Below, one piece after another: positions 1 to 28,163 of a stretch of DNA of 63,324 bases (within the stretch, counting starts at the first letter, position 1; the number at the start of each line of letters is the position of its first letter). The stretch spans positions 1-63,324 of the forward strand of contig JAFLCE010000012.1 of assembly GCA_017303655.1 (NCBI GenBank). The letters are read 5' to 3'. The notes beneath the pieces were generated by a model that worked only from the letters and a program-made list of their open reading frames with translations, had not been told where the DNA came from and made no database searches. This DNA is from Anaerolineae bacterium (GTDB taxonomy: Bacteria; Chloroflexota; Anaerolineae; Anaerolineales; Villigracilaceae). A program made the position numbers and the translations under genes.

Positions 1-1549
1 CTTCGCCTGTGGCTTCTTTCAATACGGCGTTGAAGCCAGTCTCTTCTACAATGAAGATCGCGGCATGGTAAAACCCGAACCGGTCTGTGATCAGGTTTAC
101 GGTTCGTGCAAAGATGGTGTTCAAGTCCAGCGTGGAGGTGACGAGCTTACCGATCTCCGCAGATACCGCCAGATATTCATTACGCCGACGGATGGCTTCT
201 TCCGAGATCTTGCGCTGGGTGATATCTCTTGCCACCCAGAAAACGCTGTTTTCGTCCAACTTGCTAAGGGTCGCCAGGAACCAGAATAACTGTCCAGCAA
301 TTGCCAGCTCGTACTCGAACTGAACTTTACCTTCACTGCTCAATGCCTCAATCACCTTGCCGAGGAACATATCAGCAATATCACGAGGCAAAAGTTCATG
401 GAAGGTCTTCCCGATCATATCGTCGGGCGTGCGGATCAACAGAGATGGGTTAGTCGGGGCGATCTGCATGTATCGCCCTTCTTTGTTGATAACGAGCACC
501 ACATCTTCCATGGCGCTAAAAAGAGTACGCAAATTCTTTTCTGAGACATCGATGCGTTCAAAGAGACTGCTTTTTTGAATTGCAGTTGAAGTCTGTAGAA
601 CGATGGTTTCAAGGGTATTGATTTCGTTCTGGGTAATAATACGATTTGAGTCGTAAAATGCGACACCAATGGTGCCGATCACTTCGTTGTTCGCGAGCAA
701 CGGTAGGATCAGTAGGTTTTTAGTGCCGCGCTGCTTTAAAATTTCTTTGATGGGTAGTGCCAGTGGGTTGGTCTCTACATCTTTGATGAAGACCGGCTTG
801 CGCGTGCGAATGACCTCTTCTGTGGCAAGATTGCCATTAATGGGAATGAGCAAACCAATATCATTTGATTTTTCAAACGATGGAACGGCTTCTGCTGTCA
901 GAACCAAGTGAGTTCTCTCATTGTTGATCAATGCTATGCCAACATTATGTGCAGAGAGCAGTTCTACCAGGTTGTCTGCGACACTTTGTAAGGTGCTTTG
1001 CAGATCCAATGAACTGGAAACAGAAGTAACCACCTTATTAACAATGGTCAGTTCTTGTGCGCGTTGCTGTGTTTCCTGGAACAAGCGGGCATTTTCCAAC
1101 GCAAGCGCGAGTTGGTCTGTGACCTGGCGAATCAGTAATTGATCGTCGGCTGTGAAGGCGCGGGTTTGGTTCTCGTCCACCAATCTTAAAGTTGCCCAAT
1201 CTTCTTCGCCGAGTTGGATCGTTGTACTATAGGCAGCTTTAGATTTGCTCTCCGGGTTTTGGCTGAATAGTTCTGGGGGCAGCGCAAGCGTACCTGTATT
1301 GCGCCGCATAGTTTTTACCGGCGTAGAAGCAGGTCTGGCTGAGGAAACAGGCTTCCAGTCCGCGACTGGAGGCGTGGGCGTCGCATTTTGTTCCACAGCG
1401 GAAGGCGTCGCATTTTGTTCCACAGCGGAAGGCGTCGCATCTTTCTCCGCCGTGGGCTGCTCTGCCTTGCCAGGGAGTTTGTTGTCCTCGGGTTGAACGT
1501 CTTTGAAGAGCGCGTCAAGACGTTTGTTGATTTTGGGTTTCTTTGGCAT
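1..1549 (-). CDS. PAS/GAF multi-domain signalling protein, 3' end outside window
   Basis: The frame is open from the ATG at 1549 to the window edge (about 516 residues seen; the C-terminus is missing). Seen in order: a Pro/Ala/Thr-rich linker with a duplicated 9-residue unit (about 39-60), the C-terminal half of a GAF-like domain ending in ALALENARLFQET (to about 155), a full GAF domain (about 160-320), a PAS domain (about 330-455, ending WVARDITQRKISEE), then the start of another GAF (FGFYHAAIFIVEE). Unlike the membrane sensors upstream it has no transmembrane segment in the visible part. The start overlaps the end of parA by 35 nt; AGGAG lies about 10 nt upstream of the ATG. By family habit such PAS-GAF chains often end in a histidine kinase, which would supply the output the array lacks, but that part is not in the window. 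Confidence 0.85.
   Translation of the reverse strand, partial: MPKKPKINKRLDALFKDVQPEDNKLPGKAEQPTAEKDATPSAVEQNATPSAVEQNATPTPPVADWKPVSSARPASTPVKTMRRNTGTLALPPELFSQNPESKSKAAYSTTIQLGEEDWATLRLVDENQTRAFTADDQLLIRQVTDQLALALENARLFQETQQRAQELTIVNKVVTSVSSSLDLQSTLQSVADNLVELLSAHNVGIALINNERTHLVLTAEAVPSFEKSNDIGLLIPINGNLATEEVIRTRKPVFIKDVETNPLALPIKEILKQRGTKNLLILPLLANNEVIGTIGVAFYDSNRIITQNEINTLETIVLQTSTAIQKSSLFERIDVSEKNLRTLFSAMEDVVLVINKEGRYMQIAPTNPSLLIRTPDDMIGKTFHELLPRDIADMFLGKVIEALSSEGKVQFEYELAIAGQLFWFLATLSKLDENSVFWVARDITQRKISEEAIRRRNEYLAVSAEIGKLVTSTLDLNTIFARTVNLITDRFGFYHAAIFIVEETGFNAVLKEATGE
1381..1434. repeat. 27-bp tandem duplication inside linker
   Basis: Two exact consecutive copies of a 27-bp unit (1381-1407 and 1408-1434) plus the first 6 bases of a third. 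The length is a multiple of three, so the reading frame is kept and the protein gains a second ATPSAVEQN unit in its disordered linker. Confidence 0.9.
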
Positions 1550-2300
1550 ATTCCACTAACTCCTGGGCAAGGACGCGATATTGCGTGGAGCCGCGTGCAG
1601 CGGCTTTGTAATGGGTGATGGGTTGTCCGGCAATCGGGCTTTCGCGCAGTTTTGTATCCAGCTCGATCACGGTATTAAACACGCCCGTGCCAAAAGTGGC
1701 GCGGAGTTGTTCGTGAATGTTGCGATGCGTGCGGTTGCGACGATCTAACATGGTGACGAGGATGCGATAAGAAAGATTGGGATTGTCCATTTCGCGCGAA
1801 CGGCGAATGAGCCCCATCATGTTTCGCAAAGCATAGGCAGAAAAATATTCCGCCTGCGTGGGGATTAACAACAAATTAGCAGCGGCAAGCGCATTGCGTG
1901 TAATGGCGCCCAAAGCGGGCGGACAATCTAAAATAATGTAATCGTATGGCAACCCAGCACCGCGAATGGCGCGCTGCAAAATGGTGGTGTAGTTGGTGCG
2001 AACAGGCAGAAATTGTTCGGAGGTTTCAATGCGGGAGCTGGATGGGATCAGATCCAGGTTTGCGACATCTGTTTTTCGGCTGACGTTCATGATGGCTTCA
2101 TTATCGAGCATCACATTGCTTGAGGTCATTTCAGATTCGCCCGGCTCCAAACCCAGGGCAAGGGTCAGGTTTGCCTGAGCATCCAGGTCGATCAATAGAA
2201 CGCGGTTCCCTAGCTCTGCCAAGGCTGCTCCTAAAGATAACGCCGTGGTGGTTTTGGCGACGCCGCCTTTTTCATTCGATACTGCTATAGTCTTCGTCAT
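1515..2300 (-). CDS. ParA/Soj-family ATPase
   Basis: 261-residue cytosolic P-loop ATPase of the ParA/MinD class. The deviant Walker A is KGGVAKTT (residues 11-18), with LLIDLDAQ (A') and YIILDCPPALG (Walker B) following, as in Soj-type proteins that dimerise on ATP and bind nucleoid DNA nonspecifically. No ParB or parS is visible nearby. It sits inside the sensor run, 27 nt after the stop of an upstream Cache-HAMP-GAF gene and overlapping the next PAS/GAF gene by 35 nt, so it is probably co-transcribed with receptors. Orphan ParA homologues encoded with chemoreceptor or receptor genes elsewhere position protein clusters in the cell; that role here is inference. GAGG lies 5-8 nt before the ATG. 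Confidence 0.9.
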   Translation of the reverse strand: MTKTIAVSNEKGGVAKTTTALSLGAALAELGNRVLLIDLDAQANLTLALGLEPGESEMTSSNVMLDNEAIMNVSRKTDVANLDLIPSSSRIETSEQFLPVRTNYTTILQRAIRGAGLPYDYIILDCPPALGAITRNALAAANLLLIPTQAEYFSAYALRNMMGLIRRSREMDNPNLSYRILVTMLDRRNRTHRNIHEQLRATFGTGVFNTVIELDTKLRESPIAGQPITHYKAAARGSTQYRVLAQELVEYAKETQNQQTS

Positions 2301-2327
2301 AAAATCCTCGTTTGCCTGCAGCTCTGC

Positions 2328-4820
2328 TTACCTGTCTGGTGAAATATTCTTTTGGGGTACGATCTCTACGCGCGAAACATTCAAGGCTTCACGCAATTCT
2401 TTGATGGCTGTTTCGATCATCACTTGCGGGTCGTTCGTCTCACGGATCTTGGTCGTGATATCGGTAACCATTCTTTCACGTTGGGCGCGGCGCGAGGTTT
2501 CGTCGAACAATCTTGCGTTTTCGGCGATAACCGCTACACGTTCCGCCACCGCCCGGATCAAATCCATTTGGTCTGCTTTGATGTTCTCTTCTTTAGGGAT
2601 TTGTACAGAGAGCTCGCCAACTTCCTGTCCACGAATGACGATCGGAATAAGGATCTGTTTGCGATCTTTGCCTTCGGCAAGTTCTGAGTTTGCTTCTTCT
2701 GCATCCGTGATGCGTGAAGCACTGCCAGCCGCATAGCGGTACCCAGAAATGCTGGTTATTTCTGCCAAACGTTTCCAGTTCTCGCGGAAGTATTGTTTTG
2801 AAGCAGCTTCTGCTTCGGTGAGTGAACGTTCCATCTGCTCATACAATTTTGCGTTTTGGATCGCGATACTTACCAGCTCTGCCAAAATGGTCAGCGTTTC
2901 AAGATCGTCATTGGAGAAGGCATCTGCTTCTGTGCTTTGTACATCGAGCACTCCGAGCAGAACACCAGCTTCAATGAGTGGAAGCGCCATTTCAGATTGT
3001 GTGGTGGGAAGATCGGGGTTGTTGAAGTAGACCGCATCTTCACCGACCCTTAATGCAATTCTTGGTTTGCCGGTGCCTGCCACAGTACCAACGATACCTT
3101 GCGTGCCAATTTTCAGTTGGTGCCCGCGTTTTAACATTCGGTTGCCGCCTTCACTATTGGCTGCCGCCAGAACAGCATACTTTTCCCTGGCATCGTTTAG
3201 GAAGATGCCGACATGGTAAAAGCCAAATTGTTGGCTGATTACTTCGGTCACCCGCGGCAGGAGTTCCTTGAGATTTTTTTGAGTGTTAATCTCTTGTGCC
3301 ACTCTTGCGATGGCTTCATATTGTTTTGAGCGCCCTTCGCGGTTTTTAATTTCCGTTTGCAACTCGCTGGTTCTTTCATGGACACGCTCCTCCAGCGAGG
3401 AGACTAATTCTTTAACGGTGTCCGTCATTGTATTGAGCGTGTCACCTAATGCTTCGATCTCGTCTCCTGATTTGATATTTGCTTTTGCGTTGAAATTTCC
3501 CTTAGTGATCTCAGAAGCAACGCGGCTTAACGATTGTAGTGGGGCGGTGAGGTTGTTGCTAAAGAAATAAGCGATGGCTGTTGCAATTGTAAAGATGCCT
3601 ATGATCAATGCCAGGCTGGTTAAGATGGTACTGTTGCGTTCTGAAACGATTTGATCTGAGATCTCATTCGTACTTGCAAGTAATTCAGAAGAAGGGACGA
3701 TAATGACCAGCTTGTATTCGATCTCAGGGATGACCTGGTAGGCAATATACTTCTCCGAATCGTTCAGAGAGATGTTGAAAAGTCCTCGGTCATCTTGTGC
3801 AATATTGTCTAACACTTCGATCAATCCGGGCGACACTTCTGATAATGCGGCTGTGTCAATGATGCCGCCCAGAAGAGCGTTTTCGTCGGTGATCTCAAAA
3901 TCAATAAAGCCGGAGGCGGGCAGGGCGATCACACGGTTGTCGCGATCTACGAGGAAGGCATAACCTGTATCACCAGCTTCAATGGCGTTTACCTGGTCTG
4001 TAATGCTGTTCAGCTGAACGTCCATGGCGGCAACGCCCTGAAATTGCCCTTGTTCATTATTTACTGGAATGCTTGCCGTGATAACCAGCCCATTGAGCGC
4101 AGCATCTTCATAAGGTGCTGACCATACGATATTGCCATTGGGGTTGTTTTGCGGATTTGCAGAGACATACCATTGTCGTCCTGTTACATCGAAATCAGCC
4201 GGGACGATATTGGCAAGATCGATATTTGGATAATAGATGGTTTCTTTTGAGGTGCCACCAAAGTAAATGGCAATAATATCGGGGTTGTCTTCAAGGATGG
4301 AGGGAAAGACTAGTTCGGAATGCTTAAGAAGATTCAGCTTCTGGGTGAATGAGTCTGTTAAGGGCACCCCAGCCGGAATAAAGATGGAGGCGGTTTCTGT
4401 ATTGACGTTATCCCAGCTTCCTGATTCGAGTTGTTGCAAGGAAGTCTGCGCATCCCAATAGCCGCTGTTAAGCAGAGTCGTTCTTTCATCCAGGATGTCG
4501 GTGATCGATGAGCCAATAATGGAGGTATTGCTGCTGATATTTTCAAAGATGCTGCTCAGTAATTGGGCTTGTTCGCGGCTTGTGATCGTAAGTGCTTCTT
4601 CCGATTGACTGCGTACATTTTCTTCAAGCCGTAAAACAAGTTGCTTGCTGGACTCTTCAATACGGAAGAAAATGAATATGCCCATCACCAGGATAACTGC
4701 AAAGGTTAACGCCATATTGCCAACGGTTATTTTGGCGCGCAGGCTGAACCGTCTTTGTGTTGGGGTTTGCGAAGGCTCGCGATTTTGATCCATCGCCTTT
4801 TCCTTATTGGTTGCTGTCAT
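2328..4820 (-). CDS. Cache-HAMP-GAF-GAF membrane sensor
   Basis: About 830 residues. Order: short cytosolic tail, TM1 (about 30-52), a large extracytoplasmic double-Cache region (about 58-390; GRQWYVSA and GVAAMDVQL are typical Cache strands), TM2 (about 398-418), HAMP with coiled coil (about 420-505), canonical array GAF (about 513-673; FGFYHVGIFLND, PRIALRVGEDAVYFNN, TQSEMALPL), second degenerate GAF (about 695-800) and the conserved tail KIRETNDPQVMIETAIKELR. No output domain. Start choice: ATG at 4820 has AGGAGG six nt upstream and overlaps the preceding gene by 17 nt. ATG 4826 lies right against the same AGGAGG; ATG 4793 with AAGGA upstream is a real alternative. Confidence 0.88.
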   Translation of the reverse strand: MTATNKEKAMDQNREPSQTPTQRRFSLRAKITVGNMALTFAVILVMGIFIFFRIEESSKQLVLRLEENVRSQSEEALTITSREQAQLLSSIFENISSNTSIIGSSITDILDERTTLLNSGYWDAQTSLQQLESGSWDNVNTETASIFIPAGVPLTDSFTQKLNLLKHSELVFPSILEDNPDIIAIYFGGTSKETIYYPNIDLANIVPADFDVTGRQWYVSANPQNNPNGNIVWSAPYEDAALNGLVITASIPVNNEQGQFQGVAAMDVQLNSITDQVNAIEAGDTGYAFLVDRDNRVIALPASGFIDFEITDENALLGGIIDTAALSEVSPGLIEVLDNIAQDDRGLFNISLNDSEKYIAYQVIPEIEYKLVIIVPSSELLASTNEISDQIVSERNSTILTSLALIIGIFTIATAIAYFFSNNLTAPLQSLSRVASEITKGNFNAKANIKSGDEIEALGDTLNTMTDTVKELVSSLEERVHERTSELQTEIKNREGRSKQYEAIARVAQEINTQKNLKELLPRVTEVISQQFGFYHVGIFLNDAREKYAVLAAANSEGGNRMLKRGHQLKIGTQGIVGTVAGTGKPRIALRVGEDAVYFNNPDLPTTQSEMALPLIEAGVLLGVLDVQSTEADAFSNDDLETLTILAELVSIAIQNAKLYEQMERSLTEAEAASKQYFRENWKRLAEITSISGYRYAAGSASRITDAEEANSELAEGKDRKQILIPIVIRGQEVGELSVQIPKEENIKADQMDLIRAVAERVAVIAENARLFDETSRRAQRERMVTDITTKIRETNDPQVMIETAIKELREALNVSRVEIVPQKNISPDR

Positions 4821-7125
4821 TTCCATCCTCCTTTTTGAGTTTGATGGAAATTTCTGAGCCAGGGATGGTACGCCCTAATTCTTCCACAGCCGTTAATAAT
4901 ACGTTCTCGAGATTAATGGATGAACCGATCTTGCCGGTGATCTCGCTGATGCTTTGTTCCTTGATAACCTGACGCTGCGATTCTTGAATGAGACGTGCAT
5001 TTTCAAGCGCAAGCGAGAGCCTTTCAGAGATCGCTTCTGTGAGATTGACCTCGCTCTCGGTCCATTGCCTGTCGTTGGTGGGGGCTTTGATATGCATGAC
5101 GCCAATAATCTGGTCGCGAAGTTTGATAGGCACGACTAATGTGGGTTCTTGTGTTTTGCCATCGGCATGGAAGATAAGGACCTCGCCGCGATACATGGAT
5201 TGATTGATCTCGTCCGATTGTATGGGCTGGGCAAGCTTTCGTCCGCCGCTCATGCTTTGAAGATAGCCTACCATGCCTTGTTCCTGCCCGAATTCTTTCC
5301 AACCTTCGCGTAGGTTTTGCTGATAAATGGCACGCGTCTCATTAAGGGCTTGTTTGGTTTGTTCAAGCAGGCGGGTGTTCTCAATTGCAATCGCAACCTG
5401 ATCTGCAAGGATCCCAAGCGTATTGGTATCTTCTTCGGTAAAGGCGCCTGGTTTTTCGCTTTGAACATCCAAAACGCCAATGATCTTCTCACGGATCTTT
5501 AAAGGCAAAGCGACTTCTGAGCGGGTATTCGGCAGGTTTGGGTTGTTGAAAAAGGTCGCATCCTGACCGACATCGAGCGCGATGCGAGATTTCCCGCTTT
5601 TGGCAACGAATCCGACAATGCCGCTCTCGCCAACTTTTAGCCTGTGACTTCTCTTTAGCATGGCTTGGCCGCCAGAGCTGTTTGCTGCCTGAAGGACGGC
5701 ATATTGTCCTGCATCGTCGAGCAGGAAAATGCCAATATGATAGAAACCGAACTGGTCACTAATAAGCTGAGTGATCAGCGGCAAAAGGATATGAAGTTCC
5801 TGTTCGTAGTTGATAAGCTTTGAGATCTCTCCAATAGTGAGAAGTTGACCAGCACGCGCTTCAGTTTGGCGGCGGGAGATTTCTAGGTCTACGGTTCTTT
5901 CGGCGATGCGTCTTTCAAGGTTGGCGAGCATATCTCGCAATTGGGCGGTCATGCGGTTGAAGGTTTCGCCCAAAATACCAACTTCATCCAGTGATTCGAC
6001 CGGGGCTGTTACCTGTAAATCTCCATCTGAAATGCGCTCAGCAATCTGAGTCAACTTGCGCAATGGATTGGTGATGGTTCTTGTGAAATAGAAGAAGATG
6101 ATGCCAAAGAGAAATGCCAACAAAAAGCTATAGCCGGTCAGTGCGGTCTGCAACTGACGAGATTGCTGCACAACTTCCTCGCGCGGGTATACGAGCGCCA
6201 GTGACCAACCAGTATCAAAACCGACTGGCGCATACGAAACATACATGCTGTTGCCATCGACGTCTCTAGCTTCCATGAAGCCGGTATCCCCATTGACCAT
6301 ATTTCGGATCAAGTCCAGCCAGTTAGAGGCGGCGTTTCTATTTGCGATAGCAAACATCGAATCGGTCATGGGGACGTATTGATTGCCTTCCTGCCCAATC
6401 CCAAGAATGGTTCCACTTGAGTCGATTAAAAAAGCATAACCAGTCTCACCGAATTTCAGGTCTGTAAAGGTTTCCTGAATTTCTGAAAACTCCAGGTCAG
6501 CAGCAGCCACGCCTCGGAACTCCCCTTGCTTGTCATAGAATGGAATGCTCCAGGTGATGACCCAAGTTTCGCCATTGCCGCGGCTATTGTTGCGATAGGG
6601 AGGAGAAAGAGTGGGGGCAAGGGTTCGCTTTGGCAGGAAATACCATTCCTGATTAAAGTAATCATACTCACCCAGTTGAGTAAATTGAATGGAGCCGTCT
6701 GGAGCGCGATAATAGTATGGCGACCAATAAAATAACCCAAACTCGAATTGATCGGGTTCGTAGCCTGCCGCTGCGCCGAAAATTTGCTGATTGCGAATCA
6801 CATTGTTTTCAATGACCGTTTTCAGATTATTCTGGTTATATGTACCTGACTCGATGGCAATGGCAAGATTATCTGCAACGGTTCGAACTTCTGCAAGTTT
6901 GATCTGAATGCGATCGATGCTATCGCCAGTATCCGCGCGCAGGTTTTCTTCAACACTTTCTGTAAGGGCACCCTGGCTGATGCGAATGCTGATGATCGTA
7001 TACAAAATAAACGCCACGAACAGCAAGCCCACTGAAACAAGGGTCAGTTTAAGACCAAGGCTGGCAATTGGCAGATTCTCTGCCGGGGTTGGTTCTTCGG
7101 GGTAAACCTGGGGTACTTGATCCAT
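4804..7125 (-). CDS. Cache-HAMP-GAF-GAF membrane sensor
   Basis: 773 residues. TM1 (about 24-47), extracytoplasmic double-Cache region with the variant seen again in the gene at 13564-15909 (YEPDQFEFGLFYWSPYY, EYDYFNQEWYFLPKR, GVAAADLEFSE; about 55-325), TM2 (about 330-353), HAMP (355-410), array GAF (about 440-600; PRIALDVG-type motif reads SRIALDVGQDATFFNN; TRSEVALPL), degenerate second GAF (about 620-730) and the conserved end EISGKIGSSINLENVLLTAV-type tail. The WYFLPKR Cache subtype resembles Cache domains of bacterial receptors that sense small amines or acids, but the ligand cannot be told from sequence. It starts 13 nt after the stop of the upstream sensor and overlaps the next gene. 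Confidence 0.9.
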   Translation of the reverse strand: MDQVPQVYPEEPTPAENLPIASLGLKLTLVSVGLLFVAFILYTIISIRISQGALTESVEENLRADTGDSIDRIQIKLAEVRTVADNLAIAIESGTYNQNNLKTVIENNVIRNQQIFGAAAGYEPDQFEFGLFYWSPYYYRAPDGSIQFTQLGEYDYFNQEWYFLPKRTLAPTLSPPYRNNSRGNGETWVITWSIPFYDKQGEFRGVAAADLEFSEIQETFTDLKFGETGYAFLIDSSGTILGIGQEGNQYVPMTDSMFAIANRNAASNWLDLIRNMVNGDTGFMEARDVDGNSMYVSYAPVGFDTGWSLALVYPREEVVQQSRQLQTALTGYSFLLAFLFGIIFFYFTRTITNPLRKLTQIAERISDGDLQVTAPVESLDEVGILGETFNRMTAQLRDMLANLERRIAERTVDLEISRRQTEARAGQLLTIGEISKLINYEQELHILLPLITQLISDQFGFYHIGIFLLDDAGQYAVLQAANSSGGQAMLKRSHRLKVGESGIVGFVAKSGKSRIALDVGQDATFFNNPNLPNTRSEVALPLKIREKIIGVLDVQSEKPGAFTEEDTNTLGILADQVAIAIENTRLLEQTKQALNETRAIYQQNLREGWKEFGQEQGMVGYLQSMSGGRKLAQPIQSDEINQSMYRGEVLIFHADGKTQEPTLVVPIKLRDQIIGVMHIKAPTNDRQWTESEVNLTEAISERLSLALENARLIQESQRQVIKEQSISEITGKIGSSINLENVLLTAVEELGRTIPGSEISIKLKKEDGNDSNQ

Positions 7126-7138
7126 GTCTAAATCTCTT

Positions 7139-13549: not shown

Positions 13550-13563
13550 AACGTTTTCTCGCT

Positions 13564-17588: not shown

Positions 17589-17630
17589 AAAATAGTCTCG
17601 TAATTAAGACGTTCTTCCAAAAGAAAAATC

Positions 17631-19931: not shown

Positions 19932-19964
19932 AAGGTAGAAGCCTTCATTTCGTAGAAGGTTTGT

Positions 19965-21584
19965 TTATTGAGTAGTTTCCTGTTGTGATGTGCCGATCAA
20001 AATCTCGGCTTCTTTTAAGTCAAATACATTGCGTAATTCTGTGGCTGCACTACGCACCACAGCCTCGATATCAAGTGTTTCGCGCACAGAACTTGAAAAA
20101 CTGGCGATCATTTGGTTTCGAAGCGCATTTCTTTGCGCTTCATCCACTAGACGGCTATTTTCAAGGGCAAGCGCAACTTGAACGGAGATTTTTTCTACAA
20201 GATCGCGTTCACGATCTGACCATTGGCTTACGGAACCTTTTCTCTTTAGTTTTATCTTACCGATGCTTTGTCCTTGAAGAATGATAGGAACATGCAATCC
20301 GTCTGTTTCAGGCTCTGGCTTGCTTTGCGAGAAGACCGGGCGGACACCCGCCGGAGTAAAGAGATAGGCAGTCTTGCGGCGACTTGTAAGCTTTGACCAG
20401 GTTCTCTGGGTTTGAAGGGCAGTATTTGCCTCGAGTTGCGCAACCAAATTCCGCGACTCGGCGATCAGGCGCACATTGTCAAATGAAATGGCGACAAGGT
20501 CCGCCAGGGTTTGCAGGATCTCTGCGTCTTGAGTGCCAAACGCACGTGGTTGATCGGAATGAATATCCAAAAAGCCGATTACCTCGCCGCGCACATTTAG
20601 CGGCATGATCATACGCGACCTGGTGATGGGGAAGTTGGCATCCGAGATAAACTTGCCTTGGTCCTGGTCAGAGGTGATCACGGTTTTTTTGTTTTCAACC
20701 GCCATTGTGATGGGGTTGCGCCGATCTGATTCGATCCGCAGTACTTGCCCGATCAGTTTCTTGCCGACCTCTGAAGAAGCCGATTGAAGGTATGCAGTGG
20801 TACCGGCTTCATCCAGAATGTAAATACCTGTGTGGTAATACTGAAAATTTTCCGAGATCAGGTCTGAGGCTTTATTCAAAAGCTCGACAATATTCTGGGT
20901 TTCAGCGATAACTCGCGCCGTTGTGGTTGAAGCGCGCAACTGATTCATACGAGCTTCCAATTCTTCAGTTCGATCTCGAACAGCCTCTTCAAGATTTTGC
21001 CGTTCAATGTTTAGCGCATTAAATGCCGCTTGCATTTGATTTGTCACTTTGGCGAAGGCACCTTTGAGCATGGAGATCGCAAAAGTAATAATAGTGGCTG
21101 CAATAACAAAGTCAACGATGAATACAGCCCAATCTAGCAGTGCCGTGCTGGGGGCAGCAGGGGCAGAAAGCTGATAGTACCCCTGAGTCGTGAGATAAGT
21201 TAATGTCAGTAAAAAGATAATACTTGAAAGCAGTATTACGAGATAAGCACGGTTGTCTATCAACAGCGCCGCAAGGGTGATCCCTGCAAGGAGAAAAATA
21301 GTTCCATCTGCCCACGGACCCCACGAAAACACGGCATTCACACCCACCAGAATAGGCATGGAGAGCAAAAGCGAGGCGCGTAAGGAATAGGGCGAAGGTA
21401 AGACAGTGATTGCAACCAGCAACAAATAAAGGCTGATGAATAAGATGCGATCCATGACAGTGGCGGTCGAGTATGAACTAATGATCAAAAACACACCAAG
21501 CACAGAAGCAATCCGCAACACAGTGCGGATGAATTGCTCGCGCCACTCGCCTAGGTCGAATCTTGCTTCCACTTCGCTATTCAT
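19965..21584 (-). CDS. Six-TM GAF-GAF sensor, divergent GAF
   Basis: 539 residues from ATG 21584. Six hydrophobic helices (about 20-180), coiled coil (about 180-220), a divergent array GAF (about 225-385): FQYYHTGIYILDE is kept, but the PRIALDVG block is replaced by KTVITSDQDQGKFISD and TRSE by TRSRMIMPL. A second GAF (about 405-500; VPIILQGQSIGKIKL, ALALENSRLVDE) and a tail with SSVRETLDIEAVVRSAATEL follow. The start at 21584 overlaps the upstream stop by 8 nt (ATGAATAG); the longer start at 21617 lies wholly within the upstream gene. The lost GAF block suggests a different ligand or none. Confidence 0.86.
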   Translation of the reverse strand: MNSEVEARFDLGEWREQFIRTVLRIASVLGVFLIISSYSTATVMDRILFISLYLLLVAITVLPSPYSLRASLLLSMPILVGVNAVFSWGPWADGTIFLLAGITLAALLIDNRAYLVILLSSIIFLLTLTYLTTQGYYQLSAPAAPSTALLDWAVFIVDFVIAATIITFAISMLKGAFAKVTNQMQAAFNALNIERQNLEEAVRDRTEELEARMNQLRASTTTARVIAETQNIVELLNKASDLISENFQYYHTGIYILDEAGTTAYLQSASSEVGKKLIGQVLRIESDRRNPITMAVENKKTVITSDQDQGKFISDANFPITRSRMIMPLNVRGEVIGFLDIHSDQPRAFGTQDAEILQTLADLVAISFDNVRLIAESRNLVAQLEANTALQTQRTWSKLTSRRKTAYLFTPAGVRPVFSQSKPEPETDGLHVPIILQGQSIGKIKLKRKGSVSQWSDRERDLVEKISVQVALALENSRLVDEAQRNALRNQMIASFSSSVRETLDIEAVVRSAATELRNVFDLKEAEILIGTSQQETTQ

Positions 21585-23160
21585 CTTTCTTGCCTTCCAT
21601 TGAAATTTCGATCTCAACCTCTGAGGCTTCTAAGCCGCGCCCAAGCTCACGAACAGTGGTCTGCAGAATGCCATCCATATTGGTAGATGCCCATATTTTG
21701 GAAATGATCTCATTGGTGAGTCTTTCCTGCGAGGCGGTAAATTGACTGCCTTCCACCAGGCGGGCATTCTCTAGTGCCAATGTTGCTTGTGTTGCAATGG
21801 CTTCAATAAGATTTTTTTGCTCGCTACTCCATTCGGCAGAGCTTGCCAGCTGAATTTGACCGATCACCTGATTCCTCAACGCCAACGGAATTTCCAGCGG
21901 ACTTTCGTCTTCCATTTCCTTATCGCCAAGGGCGTAACTCAGTGATCGCTCAGTTGAGAGATTGCTCCAGGCATTTCCCAAATATTGACGTTGGGTTGCC
22001 TGCATTTCTGCAATACTTTGCTGCGCTTCTTGAAAGAGCTTAGAGTTTTCTACCGCAATGGAAATACCATTTGCCATGTTTTGATAGGCATCCAGATCCT
22101 GAGGCAGGAATTCATTATCTTTGGATGAGTGCATTTCCAATATGCCGAATACGTTATCACCCACAATAAGCGGCACAATGATCATAGAGCGCGTGTATGG
22201 GAATAAAGGATTCTCACGCAAGATTTGGTTCGTATCCGTCAATATCTGCCCGGTTTTCAAGCGGACAATTTGGGCTGTGATGCTTTTTCCTGAAATCTGA
22301 ATGCGGTGCTTTCTTTCCTTCAAGACTTTGCCGGTCTCCCCGGCTGCTTCTTTTAATTCCAACCATTGACCTGTCGAGTCGGTCAAGTAGATTGCTGTGT
22401 GATAAAAACCAAACTCACTCTGAATGAACTTAACAGCGAGCGGCAACAGTTCTTGCACATCCAGGATGGCGGACACGGCTTGCTCCACTTCATTGATGCG
22501 GCGAAGCTGAACTGTACGTTCTTGCACTCTGTTCTCAAGGTTATTACGTTCATCACGCACAATGTTCAAGCTTTCTGCAACCTGCTTTTGTGCATCAGCA
22601 AATTCTTTTTCAAGTTGTTGAAATCCAATGATAATGATAACGCCGAACATAACCAGCGCAGCGCTTGCACTGATCCAATCTGCCAATATCGCCGGAGATG
22701 CCAACGGATTTAACGTTTTTAACCCGCCTGCCAGCATCAACCAGCCCATGATCACAAATGCTGCAATTGAAACGATAATAGATACAATACCAGCCTTTGG
22801 GGAAGATAACATGGTCGCAAAAATGACAAACCCTAAAAAGAAAAATAAACCATCTCCCAATATCCCATGCACCAGAAGTTCGCCAATACCAAGCATGAAA
22901 ACACTAAACAAAAAACCTGCAATACGAACATTGTATGAGAGTCGAAAAATTGCCAACAAAGCTGCAATGGCATAGGCACCGAGAAAGATGCCATTAATGA
23001 ACACGCTATTTGAAGCTGAAATAGCTGGGAAGAGCGCGATTCCTCCAAATATTAAAACACCAAACAGCAGCGGCAAAATAAAACGTTCACGCCAGGCCCG
23101 GTAAACTTCCTGGGTGGAATGATCTGGAGTGGACAGGAGCGGAATTGTGGGGCGGTCCAT
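21577..23160 (-). CDS. Six-TM GAF-GAF sensor, divergent GAF
   Basis: 527 residues. Six hydrophobic helices (about 32-185), coiled coil (about 185-225), GAF (about 228-388; FGFYHTAIYLTDS, then QILTDTNQILRENPLF and TRSMIIVPL instead of the array consensus) and a second GAF (about 405-495; IPLALRNQVIGQIQL, TLALENARLVEG). The tail KIWASTNMDGILQTTVRELG is the family ending. It shares its divergent GAF features with the next gene (19965-21584), so these two form a sub-lineage. The start codon shares one base with the upstream stop (TAATG), a typical translational-coupling junction. Confidence 0.87.
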   Translation of the reverse strand: MDRPTIPLLSTPDHSTQEVYRAWRERFILPLLFGVLIFGGIALFPAISASNSVFINGIFLGAYAIAALLAIFRLSYNVRIAGFLFSVFMLGIGELLVHGILGDGLFFFLGFVIFATMLSSPKAGIVSIIVSIAAFVIMGWLMLAGGLKTLNPLASPAILADWISASAALVMFGVIIIIGFQQLEKEFADAQKQVAESLNIVRDERNNLENRVQERTVQLRRINEVEQAVSAILDVQELLPLAVKFIQSEFGFYHTAIYLTDSTGQWLELKEAAGETGKVLKERKHRIQISGKSITAQIVRLKTGQILTDTNQILRENPLFPYTRSMIIVPLIVGDNVFGILEMHSSKDNEFLPQDLDAYQNMANGISIAVENSKLFQEAQQSIAEMQATQRQYLGNAWSNLSTERSLSYALGDKEMEDESPLEIPLALRNQVIGQIQLASSAEWSSEQKNLIEAIATQATLALENARLVEGSQFTASQERLTNEIISKIWASTNMDGILQTTVRELGRGLEASEVEIEISMEGKKDE

Positions 23161-26100
23161 TAGGAGTTTTCCTCATTCCTAGGATCGATCTCAATTTTTG
23201 TATAACGCGCACCCGTGACTCTTGCAATCTCACTGGCGGTGGTTTGTAAAATGGATTGAATATCTGTGGACCTGCGGATTTTTCCCGTGATCTCGAAGAC
23301 TAAACGTTCACGCTCGGTCTGCGCTCGGATCTGTTCCAACAACCGGGCATTGGCGATCACTGCAGCGAGACTTCCGCCCAGCGTTCCCAACATTTCTTCA
23401 TCGTTTTCCGAATAAGCATCCACTTGCTCGCTTTCAACGTTGATCACCCCTAGGGTTTCATTTCGGTAAATGAGCGGAATAGCAAGTTCAGAACGAGTAT
23501 TCGGGCTGGTCTGGATGTACCGTGGGTCTTCAGTTACATTACGTAATCGCAGCGGGCGTTTATGTGCTGCCACCCAGCCAGTCACACCCTTGCCAATTTC
23601 TACTTTCAAGTCGCTGATATCTTCAGAATACCCAACCGACGCCTTGACTTCCAACGTGCGCTTATCACGATCCGTCAAAAGGATCATCACTCGGTCACCG
23701 CCGAGGGTCACCTGCAAACCATTGACTGCGCTTTCCAGCGCTTCTTCGAGAGTGGTACCCGAAGCGGCGGTGGAAGTAATATGATGAAGAAGCCTGTGCT
23801 GTGATAAGTGTTCTTGAGTTTCTGCAAAAAGTTCCGAGTTTTCTACAGCAATCGCAAGTTGGTCGGCGAGCACTTGTAAACTTTTCAAATTATCTTCATG
23901 AAATGCAAACGGAGCCGTACTCTGAACATCCAAAACACCCAGAATCCGGTCACCGACGCGAAGCGGAATCGCCGCTTCTGCTCGTGTATCCGGCAGTAGG
24001 GGATTAGCATAATAAGTCAGATCTTTCGCAGTGTCACTAACAACCAACAACTCTCCCTTACTGCTCACAAAGCCAACAATGGATTTTGAGCCAACACCGA
24101 TCTTGTGCCCTTGCCTTTTTAATTGAGCCCCGGCTTCACCGGTTGCCTCACGAATGATAGCGAACTCACCAGGCAGATCAAGCAGGAAGATCGCTGCATG
24201 GTAAAAGTTGAAGCGTTCACGAATGAGATTAACCGCCTTGTTAAGCAGTTCATCTAAATTAAGGGAACCGCTGATATCACGCGCGATCTCAGCCGCTGCT
24301 TCCACTTGAACTGCTTTCCGCTTGCTTTCTTCCAAAAGCTGGGCATTGTACACAGCGCCAGCCGTTTGCCCGGCTACTGTGGTGAAGAATCTCAGATCAT
24401 CTTCGGTAAATGCATTCTCATGCTCAAGATCCTGAATGATCAAAGCGCCAATTGGGTTGCCATGCACAAGCATCGGTGCGCCCATCCAAGATTTCGCAGG
24501 TTTTCCAACAACTTTTGCGCCGAGTTCTGCTGCTCTTTTTTCTGTATCTTTCACCATCATCAAAGGTTGACGTGTGCGGATCAAGATGGAGGTCAGCCCT
24601 TCACCCAGCGGGAAGGGTTGAATGGATTGTATCTTGCCGTTTTCGTAACTGAACGGGATGTTAACTGTATCTGTGTTTTCATCATAGATCGCAACGATCA
24701 AGTTGTAATCACCAATGATCTGTTGGATCTTCGTGAGCAGATCACGGAAGAAACCATTAATATCCGCGATCGAAGATGTCAATTCATTTATCGAAGCCAA
24801 TGACTCAACTTCTTGCAACCGTCTTTCGGTCTGAGCCAGAGTCGCAGATCGTTGAAAGGCTGCAGAAATTAAGTCCGCCAGATTTTCATAAGGAGGCACA
24901 GCCAAATTCGAAAAACTTTGTTGGCGTGAACCGATCATAATGATGGCAGCCAGACCTGCCTGACCACGGATCGGCAAAATCGCTGCGCCTGTGAAGCCAA
25001 GGTTTTTTGTGATTTCTTGAAGAGCTTTCGGCAGCCCAACAGGAGAACTGGCTGCAATAACCGACCCTCTTGCGAGGAATGTAGATAGTTCTTGCGTGTT
25101 TGTTTGGATTGGATTCTGGAACTCACCTGACGAAGTTTCGGCTCGTGACGCATCGGAAGCTGTCACCAGTTTCAGTGAGTCTTTCACCACCTGAAAGAGC
25201 AGAATGGGGTAGGGGGCACTGCGCAGGATTTGTCCGCTAATGCGCAAAGTCTCGGCTTCACTCTGTGCTTCAGCCAGCATGCGACTCGATCTATACAAAC
25301 GATCTAACTCTTGAAAATCGATCTGGCTGTTTTCTACCAACTTCGACGTTTGAATTGCGGCTGCGATCTGGCTGGCAAGTGTCTCCAACATCACTGTAGT
25401 ATCAGAATTAAATGCGTTGAGTTCCGTACTCTGTACATCTAAAACGCCCAGCACCTGCTCATTAAGTGAGATAGGCACGCAAACCTCAGATTTGGTCTCA
25501 GGCAGTAGTTCATTTTTTAGATACAAAGGGTCTTCCGAAACATCCGGCGTGACCCGGGCTTGGTTGTTTGCTGCAGCCCATCCCACGGTTGAGGCGGAGT
25601 TCACATCCAGGCTGTAGTTTTGTTCGATATAGCCCTGAGTTGCAGAACCAAATCCGGCTTTGAAGTCGAGACGTTTGTTGCTTCGATCCATCAGAAAAAT
25701 GCTTGCCTGATAAAACTTGAATTGTTGAAAAAGCAGTTCGACGGTTTTGTTCAACATCTCATCGATATTGGTGATGGTGGTGATACTTTGTGCCACTTCT
25801 GCGGCGGTTCGGATCTGAAGCGCACGCTCATCCACTTTTTTCTCAAGAGACTTGTACATATCTTCGATTTGATCGGCAAGATAGTTGAATGAGTACGAAA
25901 GCTGACCGACCTCATCATTGCTGAGCACTTCGGCGCGTTGATTCCATTCACCTTGTGCGAATTTTTTTGTAATGTTGGTAAGGGATTGCAGGGGTTTCAC
26001 CACGCGTCTTGAGCCATAGAAGAGTACCAACCCCATCGCGGCGGCAGCGGCGATGGCAAGTAGGATCGTAAATGGCGCGAGGCTATTGATCTGGCTGTAC

Positions 26101-27011
26101 ACGGTGTCGGCTTCAATTGCCAGGACAACACCACTTTGAATGGAGGAGATCCACACTAGTAAGGCGAGCGCAGCTTGTCCATTTTCCAACTTTACATCAA
26201 GGGATGTGGTGACAGGTGCTGTTTGCTCTCTTTGGGTATTTACTTCAGTAATAATTTTTTCTTGCGAGGCAGGGTCGATGGTTGCAGGTGAAAATACACC
26301 ATCGCTTTGATCTGTAATGAAAACCTGTTCATTCGGGAGAATAAAATAGGTTTTTGCGTATGGTGCCAGCCCATTCAGCGGTTGCAACATGGATTTTAGA
26401 TTCTCTGCCTTTGTAATGCCGATCAAGGTTCCTAGTCGCGAGCCGTCTTTGGTGGTGTATGCCGCCATGGTCAACAACGTGAACTCATCGTCATATAGGG
26501 GGGGCAATCCATACACTAGCATGGATTGCTTTTGATCGAAAGCAAAGAGATCGGGGGCAAGTGTGATGCCCCGCCACTCTTCGTTACTGGCGAATTTTAT
26601 GTTGCCGTCATCATCTATTAATAGGAAAGCATCGAACTGCTTTTCATCTAACAGATTCTTGCTGAACTGGGTTTGAATGGCTCGAAATTGGTCACTTTGC
26701 GGGTCTGCCTGCAGAGCAACCTCTACAAGTACCGCTGCATCTTCCCCCTCAAATTGTTCCAGTATGTTTTGTTCTTTTACTTCAACTTCTTGCGCAATGA
26801 TCTCGATCTGATTGGCAAGCAGGTTTTCGCTTTGGGTCACCGCTTGTTCAGTCAATAGACTGCGTGCGCGCACATAAGCAGCACCTGCCATTAAGGCAAG
26901 CGGAATAAATGTAAAGATCAAGAGCGTCCGAACGAGCGTACTTGTGAGACTGCCCTTGAACCTTCCTTTATCATCAGATTCATGGATAAGCGCCGGAGCA
27001 GGATTTGCCAT
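23160..27011 (-). CDS. Cache-HAMP sensor with five GAF-like domains
   Basis: 1283 residues, the largest and first sensor of the run. TM1 (about 28-48), extracytoplasmic Cache region (about 55-300), TM2 (about 308-330), HAMP (about 332-385), then GAF1 (about 405-570; TKSEVCVPISLNEQVLGV), a weak GAF-like region (about 580-740), GAF3 (about 745-900; SWMGAPMLVHGNPIGALIIQ), GAF4 (about 910-1070; the closest to the array consensus: FNFYHAAIFLLD, TRAEAAIPL) and GAF5 (about 1080-1230; GVTGWVAAHKRPL, TRSELAIPL). The family tail KIRRSTDIQSILQTTASEI closes it. No catalytic output domain. It starts 22 nt after the second receiver gene and has no strong ribosome site. Confidence 0.9.
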   Translation of the reverse strand: MANPAPALIHESDDKGRFKGSLTSTLVRTLLIFTFIPLALMAGAAYVRARSLLTEQAVTQSENLLANQIEIIAQEVEVKEQNILEQFEGEDAAVLVEVALQADPQSDQFRAIQTQFSKNLLDEKQFDAFLLIDDDGNIKFASNEEWRGITLAPDLFAFDQKQSMLVYGLPPLYDDEFTLLTMAAYTTKDGSRLGTLIGITKAENLKSMLQPLNGLAPYAKTYFILPNEQVFITDQSDGVFSPATIDPASQEKIITEVNTQREQTAPVTTSLDVKLENGQAALALLVWISSIQSGVVLAIEADTVYSQINSLAPFTILLAIAAAAAMGLVLFYGSRRVVKPLQSLTNITKKFAQGEWNQRAEVLSNDEVGQLSYSFNYLADQIEDMYKSLEKKVDERALQIRTAAEVAQSITTITNIDEMLNKTVELLFQQFKFYQASIFLMDRSNKRLDFKAGFGSATQGYIEQNYSLDVNSASTVGWAAANNQARVTPDVSEDPLYLKNELLPETKSEVCVPISLNEQVLGVLDVQSTELNAFNSDTTVMLETLASQIAAAIQTSKLVENSQIDFQELDRLYRSSRMLAEAQSEAETLRISGQILRSAPYPILLFQVVKDSLKLVTASDASRAETSSGEFQNPIQTNTQELSTFLARGSVIAASSPVGLPKALQEITKNLGFTGAAILPIRGQAGLAAIIMIGSRQQSFSNLAVPPYENLADLISAAFQRSATLAQTERRLQEVESLASINELTSSIADINGFFRDLLTKIQQIIGDYNLIVAIYDENTDTVNIPFSYENGKIQSIQPFPLGEGLTSILIRTRQPLMMVKDTEKRAAELGAKVVGKPAKSWMGAPMLVHGNPIGALIIQDLEHENAFTEDDLRFFTTVAGQTAGAVYNAQLLEESKRKAVQVEAAAEIARDISGSLNLDELLNKAVNLIRERFNFYHAAIFLLDLPGEFAIIREATGEAGAQLKRQGHKIGVGSKSIVGFVSSKGELLVVSDTAKDLTYYANPLLPDTRAEAAIPLRVGDRILGVLDVQSTAPFAFHEDNLKSLQVLADQLAIAVENSELFAETQEHLSQHRLLHHITSTAASGTTLEEALESAVNGLQVTLGGDRVMILLTDRDKRTLEVKASVGYSEDISDLKVEIGKGVTGWVAAHKRPLRLRNVTEDPRYIQTSPNTRSELAIPLIYRNETLGVINVESEQVDAYSENDEEMLGTLGGSLAAVIANARLLEQIRAQTERERLVFEITGKIRRSTDIQSILQTTASEIARVTGARYTKIEIDPRNEENS

Positions 27012-27033
27012 TGAATTGATTTTACATCACTAA

Positions 27034-27492
27034 CTAACTGAATTCCCAAACAGGCTCACCATTCAAAATACGGCGAATCTGGTCGGGGAAGCGGTCTGGG
27101 TCCAGGGGTTTGCCTAAAAAGCCGTCGAACCCCGAATCTTTGGCTTTCTTCATTTGCTCCTGGCTGGCTTCAGCGGTTACAGCAATGATGGGCACCGCTT
27201 TGAAGCGTTCTGAAGCGCGAATTTTCTTCAGCGCGCCGTAGCCATCTTCATACGGCAAGCGAATGTCCATGAGGATCAGGTCAAGCCGGGGCAGGGTATC
27301 TGCATACTCAACGACTTCATATCCTGAAGTTTTCCATTCACAATGAATTCCCAAATAACCCAACATACGTGCGATCAGCACGAAGTTAGAAACATTATCT
27401 TCAACAACCAACACAGCAGCATCCTTGGGGATGGTCGGCTTACGAATGGGTTGGGTATCTGAAACAGCGGGCGTGGAATCTTGATCAACCAT
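27034..27492 (-). CDS. Stand-alone response-regulator receiver (CheY/DivK-like)
   Basis: 152 residues. A disordered Pro/Thr-rich N-terminus (about 1-22) precedes one REC domain: acidic pocket in VLVVEDN, phospho-acceptor Asp in LILMDIRLPYEDG, the Thr switch in AVTAEAS and the Lys in GKPLDPDRF. No DNA-binding or enzymatic output follows. Start: ATG 27492 has AGGAG 6-10 nt upstream and overlaps the upstream REC gene by 8 nt (ATGGTTGA); the longer in-frame start at 27600 runs inside that gene and is unlikely. Adjacent single-domain receivers at the head of a sensor operon suggest a phosphorelay; the kinase is not visible. Confidence 0.92.
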   Translation of the reverse strand: MVDQDSTPAVSDTQPIRKPTIPKDAAVLVVEDNVSNFVLIARMLGYLGIHCEWKTSGYEVVEYADTLPRLDLILMDIRLPYEDGYGALKKIRASERFKAVPIIAVTAEASQEQMKKAKDSGFDGFLGKPLDPDRFPDQIRRILNGEPVWEFS

Positions 27493-27877
27493 GGAGTCTC
27501 CTTGTAATGAAGCGTTCGATTTGCTGAGCGAGTGTGTCGATGTCAATCGGCTTCTGGATGTAACCGTCGCAACCTGCTTCAAGTGACTTTTCACGGTCAC
27601 CGCGCATCACATTGGCGGTCACAGCAATAATTGGAATTTTTGTAAATTTCTCCATCTTCTTGATCTTTGCAGTTAATGTATAGCCATCCATATCCGGCAT
27701 GTTGATATCCATCAGGATCAAGTCAATCGCTTCTGTTTCCAATTTCAACATCGCCTGCTCGGCATGCGATGCTTCGATCACGGCGTACCCCTCTGCATTA
27801 AGAACCCTTCGAATCAAATTTCGATTGTCTGGGTTGTCTTCTACATACAAGATGGTTCCCTTGGCAGCGTCAAACAT
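27485..27877 (-). CDS. Stand-alone response-regulator receiver (CheY/DivK-like)
   Basis: 130 residues, essentially a bare REC domain: ILYVEDNPDN (acidic pocket), LILMDINMPDMDG (phospho-acceptor Asp), IAVTANVM (Thr) and YIQKPID (Lys). The NPDNRNLIRR and QKPIDIDTL sequences are typical of DivK-like and hybrid-kinase receivers. It is the first gene of the 27-kb sensor run, with GGAG about 9 nt before its ATG. It overlaps the second receiver gene by 8 nt. Two receivers in tandem without a partner kinase is a notable gap in the visible operon. Confidence 0.93.
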   Translation of the reverse strand: MFDAAKGTILYVEDNPDNRNLIRRVLNAEGYAVIEASHAEQAMLKLETEAIDLILMDINMPDMDGYTLTAKIKKMEKFTKIPIIAVTANVMRGDREKSLEAGCDGYIQKPIDIDTLAQQIERFITRRLHG

Positions 27878-27963
27878 ATTCGGTAATCTCCGAACGAATT
27901 TTACTGTAGAGTGTACCCGTCACCATAACAGCAACCTTACAACTTACATATAATTTTTTAAGA

Positions 27964-27969
27964 AGTATA
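27964..27969 (-). promoter_or_regulatory. Possible -10 element of the sensor operon
   Basis: The minus strand reads TATACT about 90 nt before the ATG at 27877, after the tRNA terminator. No convincing -35 is placed correctly (the expected spot lies in the terminator stem). This 100-nt gap is nevertheless the only intergenic space able to hold the operon promoter. Confidence 0.3.
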
Positions 27970-27978
27970 GCATAACAA

Positions 27979-28014
27979 AAAGGCGAAAGCCGAGGCAGAA
28001 CCTTCCTCGGCTTT
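27979..28014 (-). terminator. Intrinsic terminator of tRNA-Gly
   Basis: Perfect 10-bp stem AAAGCCGAGG/CCTCGGCTTT (28014-28005 and 27995-27986) with a 9-nt loop, followed on the minus strand by CGCCTTTTTG. It separates the tRNA from the downstream sensor operon. Confidence 0.88.
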
Positions 28015-28017
28015 AGA

Positions 28018-28087
28018 GCGGGTGGCGGGAATCGAACCCGCGTATTGTGCTTGGGAAGCACATGTTCTACCACTGAACTACACCCGC
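28018..28087 (-). tRNA. tRNA-Gly(CCC)
   Basis: 70-nt cloverleaf: acceptor GCGGGTG/CACCCGC, D arm GTTC-AGTGGTA-GAAC, anticodon stem TGTGC/GCACA with loop TTCCCAA (anticodon CCC at 28055-28053), 4-nt variable region, T arm GCGGG-TTCGATT-CCCGC. The 3' CCA is not encoded. It has its own TTGACA/TATAAT promoter upstream and its own terminator, so it is a single-gene transcript. Confidence 0.95.
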
Positions 28088-28102
28088 TTGAATAACGGCA
28101 GG

Positions 28103-28132
28103 ATTATACGTCACGCTGAAAAGTCATGTCAA
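28103..28132 (-). promoter_or_regulatory. Promoter of tRNA-Gly
   Basis: On the minus strand TTGACA (28132-28127), an 18-nt spacer and TATAAT (28108-28103). The last base of the -10 is 16 nt from the tRNA 5' end, giving a short 5' leader. Both hexamers match the sigma-70 consensus perfectly. Confidence 0.85.
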
Positions 28133-28163
28133 GCCTTGACGAAATCGCCTCACTTCAAACTCG

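Follow-up and report, generated by a model that had tools for sequence, protein, structure and literature searches.

What do eleven membrane receptors signal to when none of them carries an output domain? The question is raised by a dense minus-strand gene array on contig JAFLCE010000012.1 (here C24) of an Anaerolineae bacterium, which we analysed from its first base over 63,324 nucleotides (the window) and which belongs to a 4.6-Mb draft genome of 172 contigs (estimated completeness 93.6%, contamination 5.8%). From position 27877 down to base 2 the array runs through two lone receivers (RECa and RECb), eleven membrane GAF receptors (R1-R11), a ParA-family ATPase and a PAS/GAF gene cut by the contig end. 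An earlier interpretation (the sequence-only reading) had recognised these components, and open reading frames (ORFs) and Pfam matches confirm them, although the genes number 15 and not the fourteen it gave. We find that the cut gene encodes a hybrid histidine kinase, that this kinase and the gene order recur in relatives, that a short basic peptide at the start of the kinase is linked to ParA, and that other lineages carry such a peptide on CheW or sensor proteins. We consider it rather probable that the whole forms one sensory apparatus, in which receptors, kinase, positioning by ParA and a phosphorelay act together. The kinase peptide, a downstream enzyme-receiver fusion and the CheW versions in sister lineages are new relative to the sequence-only reading.

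Receptors, kinase and gene order

Hydrophobic segments are present in all eleven receptors, two to eight in each by a simple hydropathy scan, and the N-termini vary: dCache-HAMP in R6, R8, R10 and R11, MASE11 in R2 and R3, multiple segments in R5, R7 and R9, and HAMP without a named sensor domain in R1 and R4. By alignment, R2-R11 have one cytoplasmic part in common: a typical GAF is joined by a linker, which in most contains a Trp, to a small second GAF, and this is followed by a helix and a C-terminal stub. In R1 the same stub comes after four GAFs. Only GAF, HAMP, dCache/PDC and MASE11 domains exceed the curated cut-offs in R1-R11 (Pfam, E ≤ 0.01). We also scanned 83 cytoplasmic cores (10 of the 11 from the window and 73 of 83 candidates from relatives, the remaining 10 being unused), each taken from about 45 residues ahead of the first GAF; a protein was excluded if it had more than two GAF matches, an odd tail length or a cut end. 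GAF families match all 83 cores and five other listed families match one to six members each, but no kinase, GGDEF, cyclase or MCP output domain was found in any of them, and MCPsignal has no match in R1-R11, the 83 cores or the source draft genome (E ≤ 0.001). The earlier statement that the sensors are without kinase, GGDEF, cyclase and methyl-accepting domains therefore stands for R1-R11 and for the 83 cores by Pfam.

A hidden output domain at the receptor C-terminus was considered and rejected, as the stub looks like the opening helix and strand of a third GAF and the junction between this tail and the second GAF aligns with GAF-to-GAF junctions within kinases. That a receptor tail and the kinase N-terminus together make up one split GAF is speculation, as the tails alone have no significant GAF score and the half-domain of the array's kinase spans only profile positions 115-145 of 145.

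The sensor and cytoplasmic parts differ in how well they are kept. In ten pairs (R2-R11) compared between the window and the relative G031, identity is 18-59% over the sensor parts, 62-80% over the first GAF and its leader, and 64-82% over the last 65 residues; R4 has exchanged its sensor (18%) and kept its cytoplasmic part. When the source genome is compared with the core profile, the match covers almost the full profile in nine array receptors and is fragmented in R1 and R2. Both the GAF and the tail end of the receptor module also occur in two proteins outside the array, from a cluster on contig C89, and many long GAF proteins match in parts only.

The cut gene continues on another contig, C54, which opens with exactly 127 bases of this gene's strand from the left end of the window, as expected of an assembly-graph break. 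Its first ORF supplies GAF, HisKA, HATPase_c and two REC domains (Pfam), and thus the HisKA and HATPase domains that the sequence-only reading suggested looking for are both present, beyond the window. A complete ortholog in G031 reads GAF-PAS-GAF-HisKA-HATPase-REC-REC, and HisKA, HATPase_c and receiver stand together in one protein both there and on C54 (L009:1-1950). Next to HisKA, HATPase and two REC domains, the kinase shows no CheW-like regulatory domain, the mark of CheA. The GAF that precedes HisKA scores 177 bits against the receptor profile. Hydropathy scanning detected no hydrophobic segment in the window part, the C54 part or the G031 ortholog; among five further kinases scanned, that of G060 has none, those of G048, G043 and G049 have one or two weak internal segments, and that of G039 has five near its start. 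Past the kinase, C54 encodes a fusion of a threonine-synthase-like enzyme with a receiver (PALP-REC), and then an EamA transporter.

A ParA match at E ≤ 1e-60 is present in 35 of 37 genus genomes (the source genome included) and in 13 of 24 from other families of the order; at E ≤ 1e-55, 32 of 249 genomes drawn from the class have one. We compared the stretches around ParA from 20 relatives, split evenly between the genus and other families (10 each) and mostly picked for their long contigs. Receptor genes lie upstream of ParA in all 20. The histidine kinase core, PALP-REC and EamA lie downstream in 17, the other three (G042, G047, G056) ending first (17 of 17 testable). RECa-RECb come before the receptors in all 14 of the 20 stretches that begin early enough to show them. 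Arrays seen whole from receivers to ParA hold 9 to 12 receptors in the window and six genus genomes (the frame-broken array of G017 was not counted) and 1 to 5 in seven genomes of other families. Certain arrays include additional genes, namely NMT1/THI5 (G016, G042, G049), PnrA-like (G043) or FIST (G056). The 39 named Chloroflexota loci (L092-L128, L130, L167) include a Candidatus Villigracilaceae metagenome-assembled genome (L093) and a cultured strain, Anaerolinea thermolimosa IMO-1 (L110); in 20 of the 39, PALP-REC comes after the kinase, and 10 end before that point. The gene order, whose conservation the sequence-only reading had proposed to check, is thus kept in the 20 relatives wherever the stretch is long enough, but six of the named loci depart from it. 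Its proposal that the receptors signal in trans to a kinase encoded by the truncated gene is well supported, short of proof, by the kinase found, the absence of receptor outputs and the order kept.

ParA and the peptide of its neighbour

Across 10 aligned ParAs, K11 and the KGGVAKTT motif are invariant, and the best solved relatives of the window ParA are 8ray, 1wcv/2bek and 6iub (Soj). The ATG of the kinase lies within the end of parA (35-bp overlap), and the kinase start, MPKKPKINKRLDALFKDVQPE, resembles the N-terminus of the ParB of the same genome, MAQRKGLGKGLDALIPGG. Passages of PMC7993993 and PMC10241942 describe the partner proteins of ParA/MinD ATPases as having in common a short charged N-terminal region through which they bind the ATPase and stimulate it, and give TlpT and McdB as suggested cases of a basic N-terminal stretch acting in this way. 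In ParP, the partner of ParC, such a region is followed by a proline-rich linker and a CheW-like domain, and ParP places chemosensory arrays (from part of PMC5706961). The kinase of the array is built in like manner. Over the first 15 residues, the net charge is +2 to +7 in the 12 kinases for which it was computed. The peptide on the kinase would, by this resemblance, bind the neighbouring ParA.

The position of the peptide was scored with two patterns. The strict one, [RQ][LI]xxLF within 28 residues of a Met among the first 60, occurs in 24 of 302 complete ORFs from 38 named Chloroflexota loci, and all 24 lie directly after ParA. The loose one, [LI]xxLF anywhere in residues 1-32 of a frame that begins close to the stop, follows 77 of 83 testable ParA stops, which come from three overlapping sets with some genomes included twice (e.g. 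G048/L191 and L104/L188), as against 23 of 236 receptor stops. By set, it was found in 19 of 20 for the window and relatives, 33 of 38 for the named loci and 25 of 25 for the class loci, with three untestable; G043 was counted among the latter because its Walker A differs, and it does carry LSKRLNDLF.

The peptide is also found on proteins other than the kinase. In L127, L128 and L130 the gene after a more distant ParA encodes a protein that starts with a basic, ALxxLF-containing stretch and continues through a long linker into a CheW domain. In G039 the peptide stands on a MASE11-GAF receptor after ParA, and the kinase further on is without it. In the class, the gene after ParA contains a sensor domain above cut-off in 7 of 9 loci scanned: dCache (L194), HAMP (L196, L199, L204), PAS (L205) or GAF (L201, L206); L200 has a dCache match below cut-off and L197 none. 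As most of these ORFs extend past the end of what was fetched, a kinase domain further on is possible. Two peptide-linked proteins end without a kinase domain, those of L201 (332 aa, GAF) and L119 (a PAS protein of 293 aa). Within L128 (393-2632) a diverged ParA is situated between a CheW gene and the peptide-bearing CheW gene, and ORFs further downstream look like motility genes.

In a ParA tree of 115 rows with an arbitrary root, the array ParAs together with their class relatives form a group of 69 rows (support 99/93). The branch that unites it with the CheW-linked group of 4 rows (100/94), the fourth of which, L124, is cut after ParA, has support of 94/78 and so falls below the starred level of the tree. 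A second ParA of the source genome, on contig C153, belongs to a separate 36-row group (100/99), together with the second, long-branched ParA of L119.

A proposed ParA-positioned receptor-kinase complex and the alternatives

The apparatus that we favour would work as follows. Eleven membrane receptors with different sensor domains and one common cytoplasmic GAF module would feed one hybrid histidine kinase, predicted to be without membrane segments and to carry just before HisKA the same kind of GAF as the receptors. The kinase would be bound to the neighbouring ParA through its basic N-terminal peptide, and ParA, moving on the nucleoid, would space or segregate the receptor-kinase complex, as ParC/ParP or PpfA/TlpT do with chemosensory arrays. 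Phosphoryl groups would pass from the kinase to its own two receivers, RECa, RECb and the receiver of PALP-REC. Both the docking of the receptors on the kinase and this phosphorelay are inferred. By analogy with the chemosensory systems, it is most likely that ParA positions a receptor-kinase complex that does without MCP, CheA or CheW. We favour a receptor-kinase array because the handle moves between kinase, receptor and CheW, and because receptors and kinase have the GAF module in common; movement of the peptide among these proteins in different lineages fits a carrier protein that brings a larger complex along.

The closest known systems are the MCP-CheA-CheW arrays with ParC/ParP (Vibrio) or PpfA/TlpT (Rhodobacter), which likewise combine many receptors of varied sensors and one cytoplasmic module with a separate kinase and lone receivers. 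In them, too, a ParA-type ATPase is accompanied by a partner protein that has a linker and, at its N-terminus, a stretch that binds ParA (for ParP, part of PMC5706961; for TlpT, part of PMC7993993), the peptide in our case being putative. Unlike these arrays, the cluster has no MCP signalling domain, CheA-type kinase or CheW, its receptors end in GAF, the HisKA hybrid kinase itself bears the peptide, and a PALP-REC fusion is included. The kinase has the domain order of PAS/GAF hybrid histidine kinases, as seen in the G031 ortholog, but differs from them in its ParB-like N-terminal peptide and in the up to twelve separate output-less membrane receptors encoded alongside. McdAB, PomXYZ and ParABS similarly pair a ParA with a partner that has a short basic N-terminus, whereas the cargo proposed here is a sensory kinase or sensor protein. 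The stressosome also joins several sensors of different inputs to one common scaffold part, but no STAS domain was found by Pfam in the proteins of the cluster.

We are evenly divided on the wider proposal that this is a second, non-homologous kind of ParA-positioned sensory array, in which the places of MCPs and CheA are taken by GAF receptors and a HisKA hybrid kinase, and in which ParA and a portable peptide serve as a general plug attached in turn to CheW, sensor proteins and a hybrid kinase. CheW has no match in the source draft genome, and it is present in 9 of 41 genomes of the genus with none shown in the other 32, so the array may stand in place of a chemosensory system in those 32. 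If the proposal is true, spatially organised multi-receptor arrays evolved, or were rebuilt, from parts unrelated to the MCP-CheA-CheW core, and hybrid histidine kinases join the cargo positioned by ParA-type motors. A large operon-like cluster that several families of Anaerolineales have kept would thereby receive a hypothesis of its function, and the proposal predicts where further cargo may be found, by a short basic N-terminal peptide on a signalling gene right after parA.

Several observations weigh against such an apparatus. The CheW-linked ParAs are 36-42% identical to the window ParA, and the branch that joins the two groups has the sub-starred support given above. Among the 39 named loci, six (L099, L108, L109, L111, L119, L123) do not show kinase-PALP-REC and three carry CheW instead. 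The kinase of G039, separated from ParA by two receptor genes, is probably membrane-bound because of the five hydrophobic segments near its start, and the kinases of G016, G039 and G043 show one receiver instead of two. Six of the 83 testable ParAs (G059, L099, L114, L122, L125, L126) are without the loose pattern, although the genes of L122, L125 and L126 nevertheless start with basic peptides; the overlap among the three sets counts here as well. Three of the 20 receptor-stop matches shown are basic N-termini such as MIKRLF, most of the 20 being hydrophobic stretches. The receptor GAF subfamily is present in other proteins of the genome. A paralogous kinase on C89 carries GRINNLF with the nearest ParA-like ORF about 27 kb away, at the contig end (C89:3-530), and because of this kinase we dropped a strict link between the peptide and an adjacent ParA.

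The cluster might instead be an amino-acid-sensing switch with a metabolic output, in which the kinase chiefly controls the PALP-REC fusion. The fusion follows the kinase in 17 of 17 testable relatives, in 20 of the 39 named loci and again in the C89 cluster, and some arrays contain the binding-protein genes NMT1/THI5 and PnrA-like. However, it fails the ThrC cut-offs (154.1 against 167.1 bits for TIGR00260 and 261.8 against 303 for PRK08197), while a separate stand-alone threonine synthase, found among the four of eleven PALP matches that were examined, passes the NCBIfam cut-off (296 against 167 bits), and the fusion is therefore not the sole candidate for the threonine synthase reaction. 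In our judgement, a pyridoxal-phosphate enzyme under direct receiver control would be unusual. We regard a metabolic switch as unlikely, and it is compatible with the receptor-kinase apparatus, the output being the sole difference. It is quite unlikely that ParA and the kinase form a polarity or cell-cycle system, in which ParA would place the kinase so as to time division or development in filaments, with the receptors as co-expressed but undocked modulators. Divisome and chromosome are among the cargo that systems of the ParA type position (passages of PMC7993993 and PMC10241942), L099 has a ParA without any array, and in L108, where only the downstream side is covered, ParA and kinase are followed by ORFs unlike those of the array; yet receptor genes stand upstream of ParA in all 20 fetched relatives, and the peptide of G039, present on a MASE11-GAF receptor and absent from the kinase, fits one shared complex.

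The presence of the GAF subfamily elsewhere in the genome would also suit receptors that are independent of this kinase, either as decoys or as heterodimers with other GAF kinases, their gene order reflecting co-regulation only. This we hold to be decidedly unlikely, as the order is kept over families and near-full-length GAF-GAF-tail matches occur in this array alone, the two outside proteins with GAF and tail end being those of the C89 kinase/PALP-REC cluster. Family membership is what the array ParA has in common with an ordinary plasmid or chromosome partition ATPase, lying in the cluster by chance. That explanation is most improbable: the genome has a separate ParA-ParB pair on C153, whose ParA is placed elsewhere in the tree, no ParB_N match lies beside the array ParA, the only one of the draft genome being on C153, and the array ParA is paired with the peptide.

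Feature coordinates, transcription and neighbouring genes

The genes are packed almost without gaps, as the sequence-only reading had stated, with spacing from a 116-bp overlap (RECa/RECb) to a largest gap of 42 bp; R7 and R8 overlap by 71 bp. ORF calling was mechanical and several start codons are guesses, and the RECa/RECb overlap is probably a start called too early.

Table 1. Features of the receptor array in the window, with the evidence for each.
Feature	Coordinates	Strand	Evidence
RECa, lone receiver domain; likely phospho-acceptor Asp in LILMDINMPDMDGY	27485..27877	-	Pfam Response_reg E 5.9e-31
RECb, lone receiver; GTG start called, likely ATG near 27492	27034..27600	-	Pfam E 1.2e-20
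R1, membrane receptor, HAMP + four GAF	23160..27011	-	Pfam, alignment, hydropathy
R2, MASE11-GAF-small GAF-tail receptor	21577..23160	-	Pfam, alignment, hydropathy
R3, MASE11-GAF receptor; TTG start called, ATG few codons in likelier	19965..21617	-	Pfam, alignment, hydropathy
R4, two-segment HAMP-GAF receptor	17631..19931	-	Pfam, alignment, hydropathy
R5, multi-segment GAF receptor	15906..17588	-	Pfam, alignment, hydropathy
R6, dCache-HAMP-GAF receptor	13564..15909	-	Pfam, alignment, hydropathy
R7, multi-segment GAF receptor	11810..13549	-	Pfam, alignment, hydropathy
R8, multi-segment + dCache-HAMP-GAF receptor; TTG start probably too early	8860..11880	-	Pfam, alignment, hydropathy
R9, multi-segment GAF receptor	7139..8863	-	Pfam, alignment, hydropathy
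R10, dCache-HAMP-GAF receptor	4804..7125	-	Pfam, alignment, hydropathy
R11, dCache-HAMP-GAF receptor	2328..4826	-	Pfam, alignment, hydropathy
ParA-family ATPase, Walker A KGGVAKTT	1515..2300	-	Pfam AAA_31 E 1.3e-48
Putative ParA-binding peptide, first 21 kinase residues, MPKKPKINKRLDALFKDVQPE	1487..1549	-	Sequence pattern, position after parA
Hybrid histidine kinase, N-terminal 516 residues, cut by contig end; continues on C54 (L009:1-1950)	2..1549	-	127-bp overlap; Pfam

On the 5' side of the array lie a tRNA-Gly gene (28016-28087) and a polyprenyl synthetase gene, and a perfect sigma-70-like site (12/12; TTGACA-18-TATAAT) is located at 28132-28103, just before the tRNA. With tRNA and site directly upstream (28016-28132), the array may be read from the tRNA promoter. 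The best sigma-70-like site inside the array matches at 10/12 in a scan of 10000-27877. Promoter-like sites in 10000-28200 number 27 against 26.5 in shuffles, and terminator-like sites 25 against 18.9 (sd 3.8); these counts are uninformative on the operon question. The gene spacing and the lack of an internal sigma-70-like site above 10/12 in the scanned stretch are no more than compatible with one transcript, and we infer a single operon transcript for the array. An Rfam scan of 1-30000 gave the tRNA as its sole match. No paper was recognised as describing this layout when titles and abstract openings were judged among open-licence papers, so a description elsewhere is possible.

RECa is 54-86% identical to its copies in the 14 relatives where it is visible. 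The receiver core of RECb (27034-27492) hardly differs between families of the order when 12 sequences are aligned; RECb probably has a fixed partner.

The source genome holds a second cluster at C89:23892-43134 (L012, L013), where two array-type receptors accompany a kinase of 1682 aa that starts with the GRINNLF peptide, a PALP-REC fusion and a RECa-like receiver. Two PALP-REC fusions are thus found in one genome, L009:1973-3628 on C54 and L012:6220-7875 on C89, each right after a histidine kinase. In L099 (8661-10795) a lone ParA, 80% identical, follows an apparent polyprenyl synthetase gene, with receptors and kinase not there; homologues of the genes upstream of the array adjoin it, as if the array had been lost. 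Past EamA, an opposite-strand group of REC, REC-kinase and GAF-GAF-kinase genes is present in 6 of the 10 genus genomes (G021, G026, G018, G023, G016, G027).

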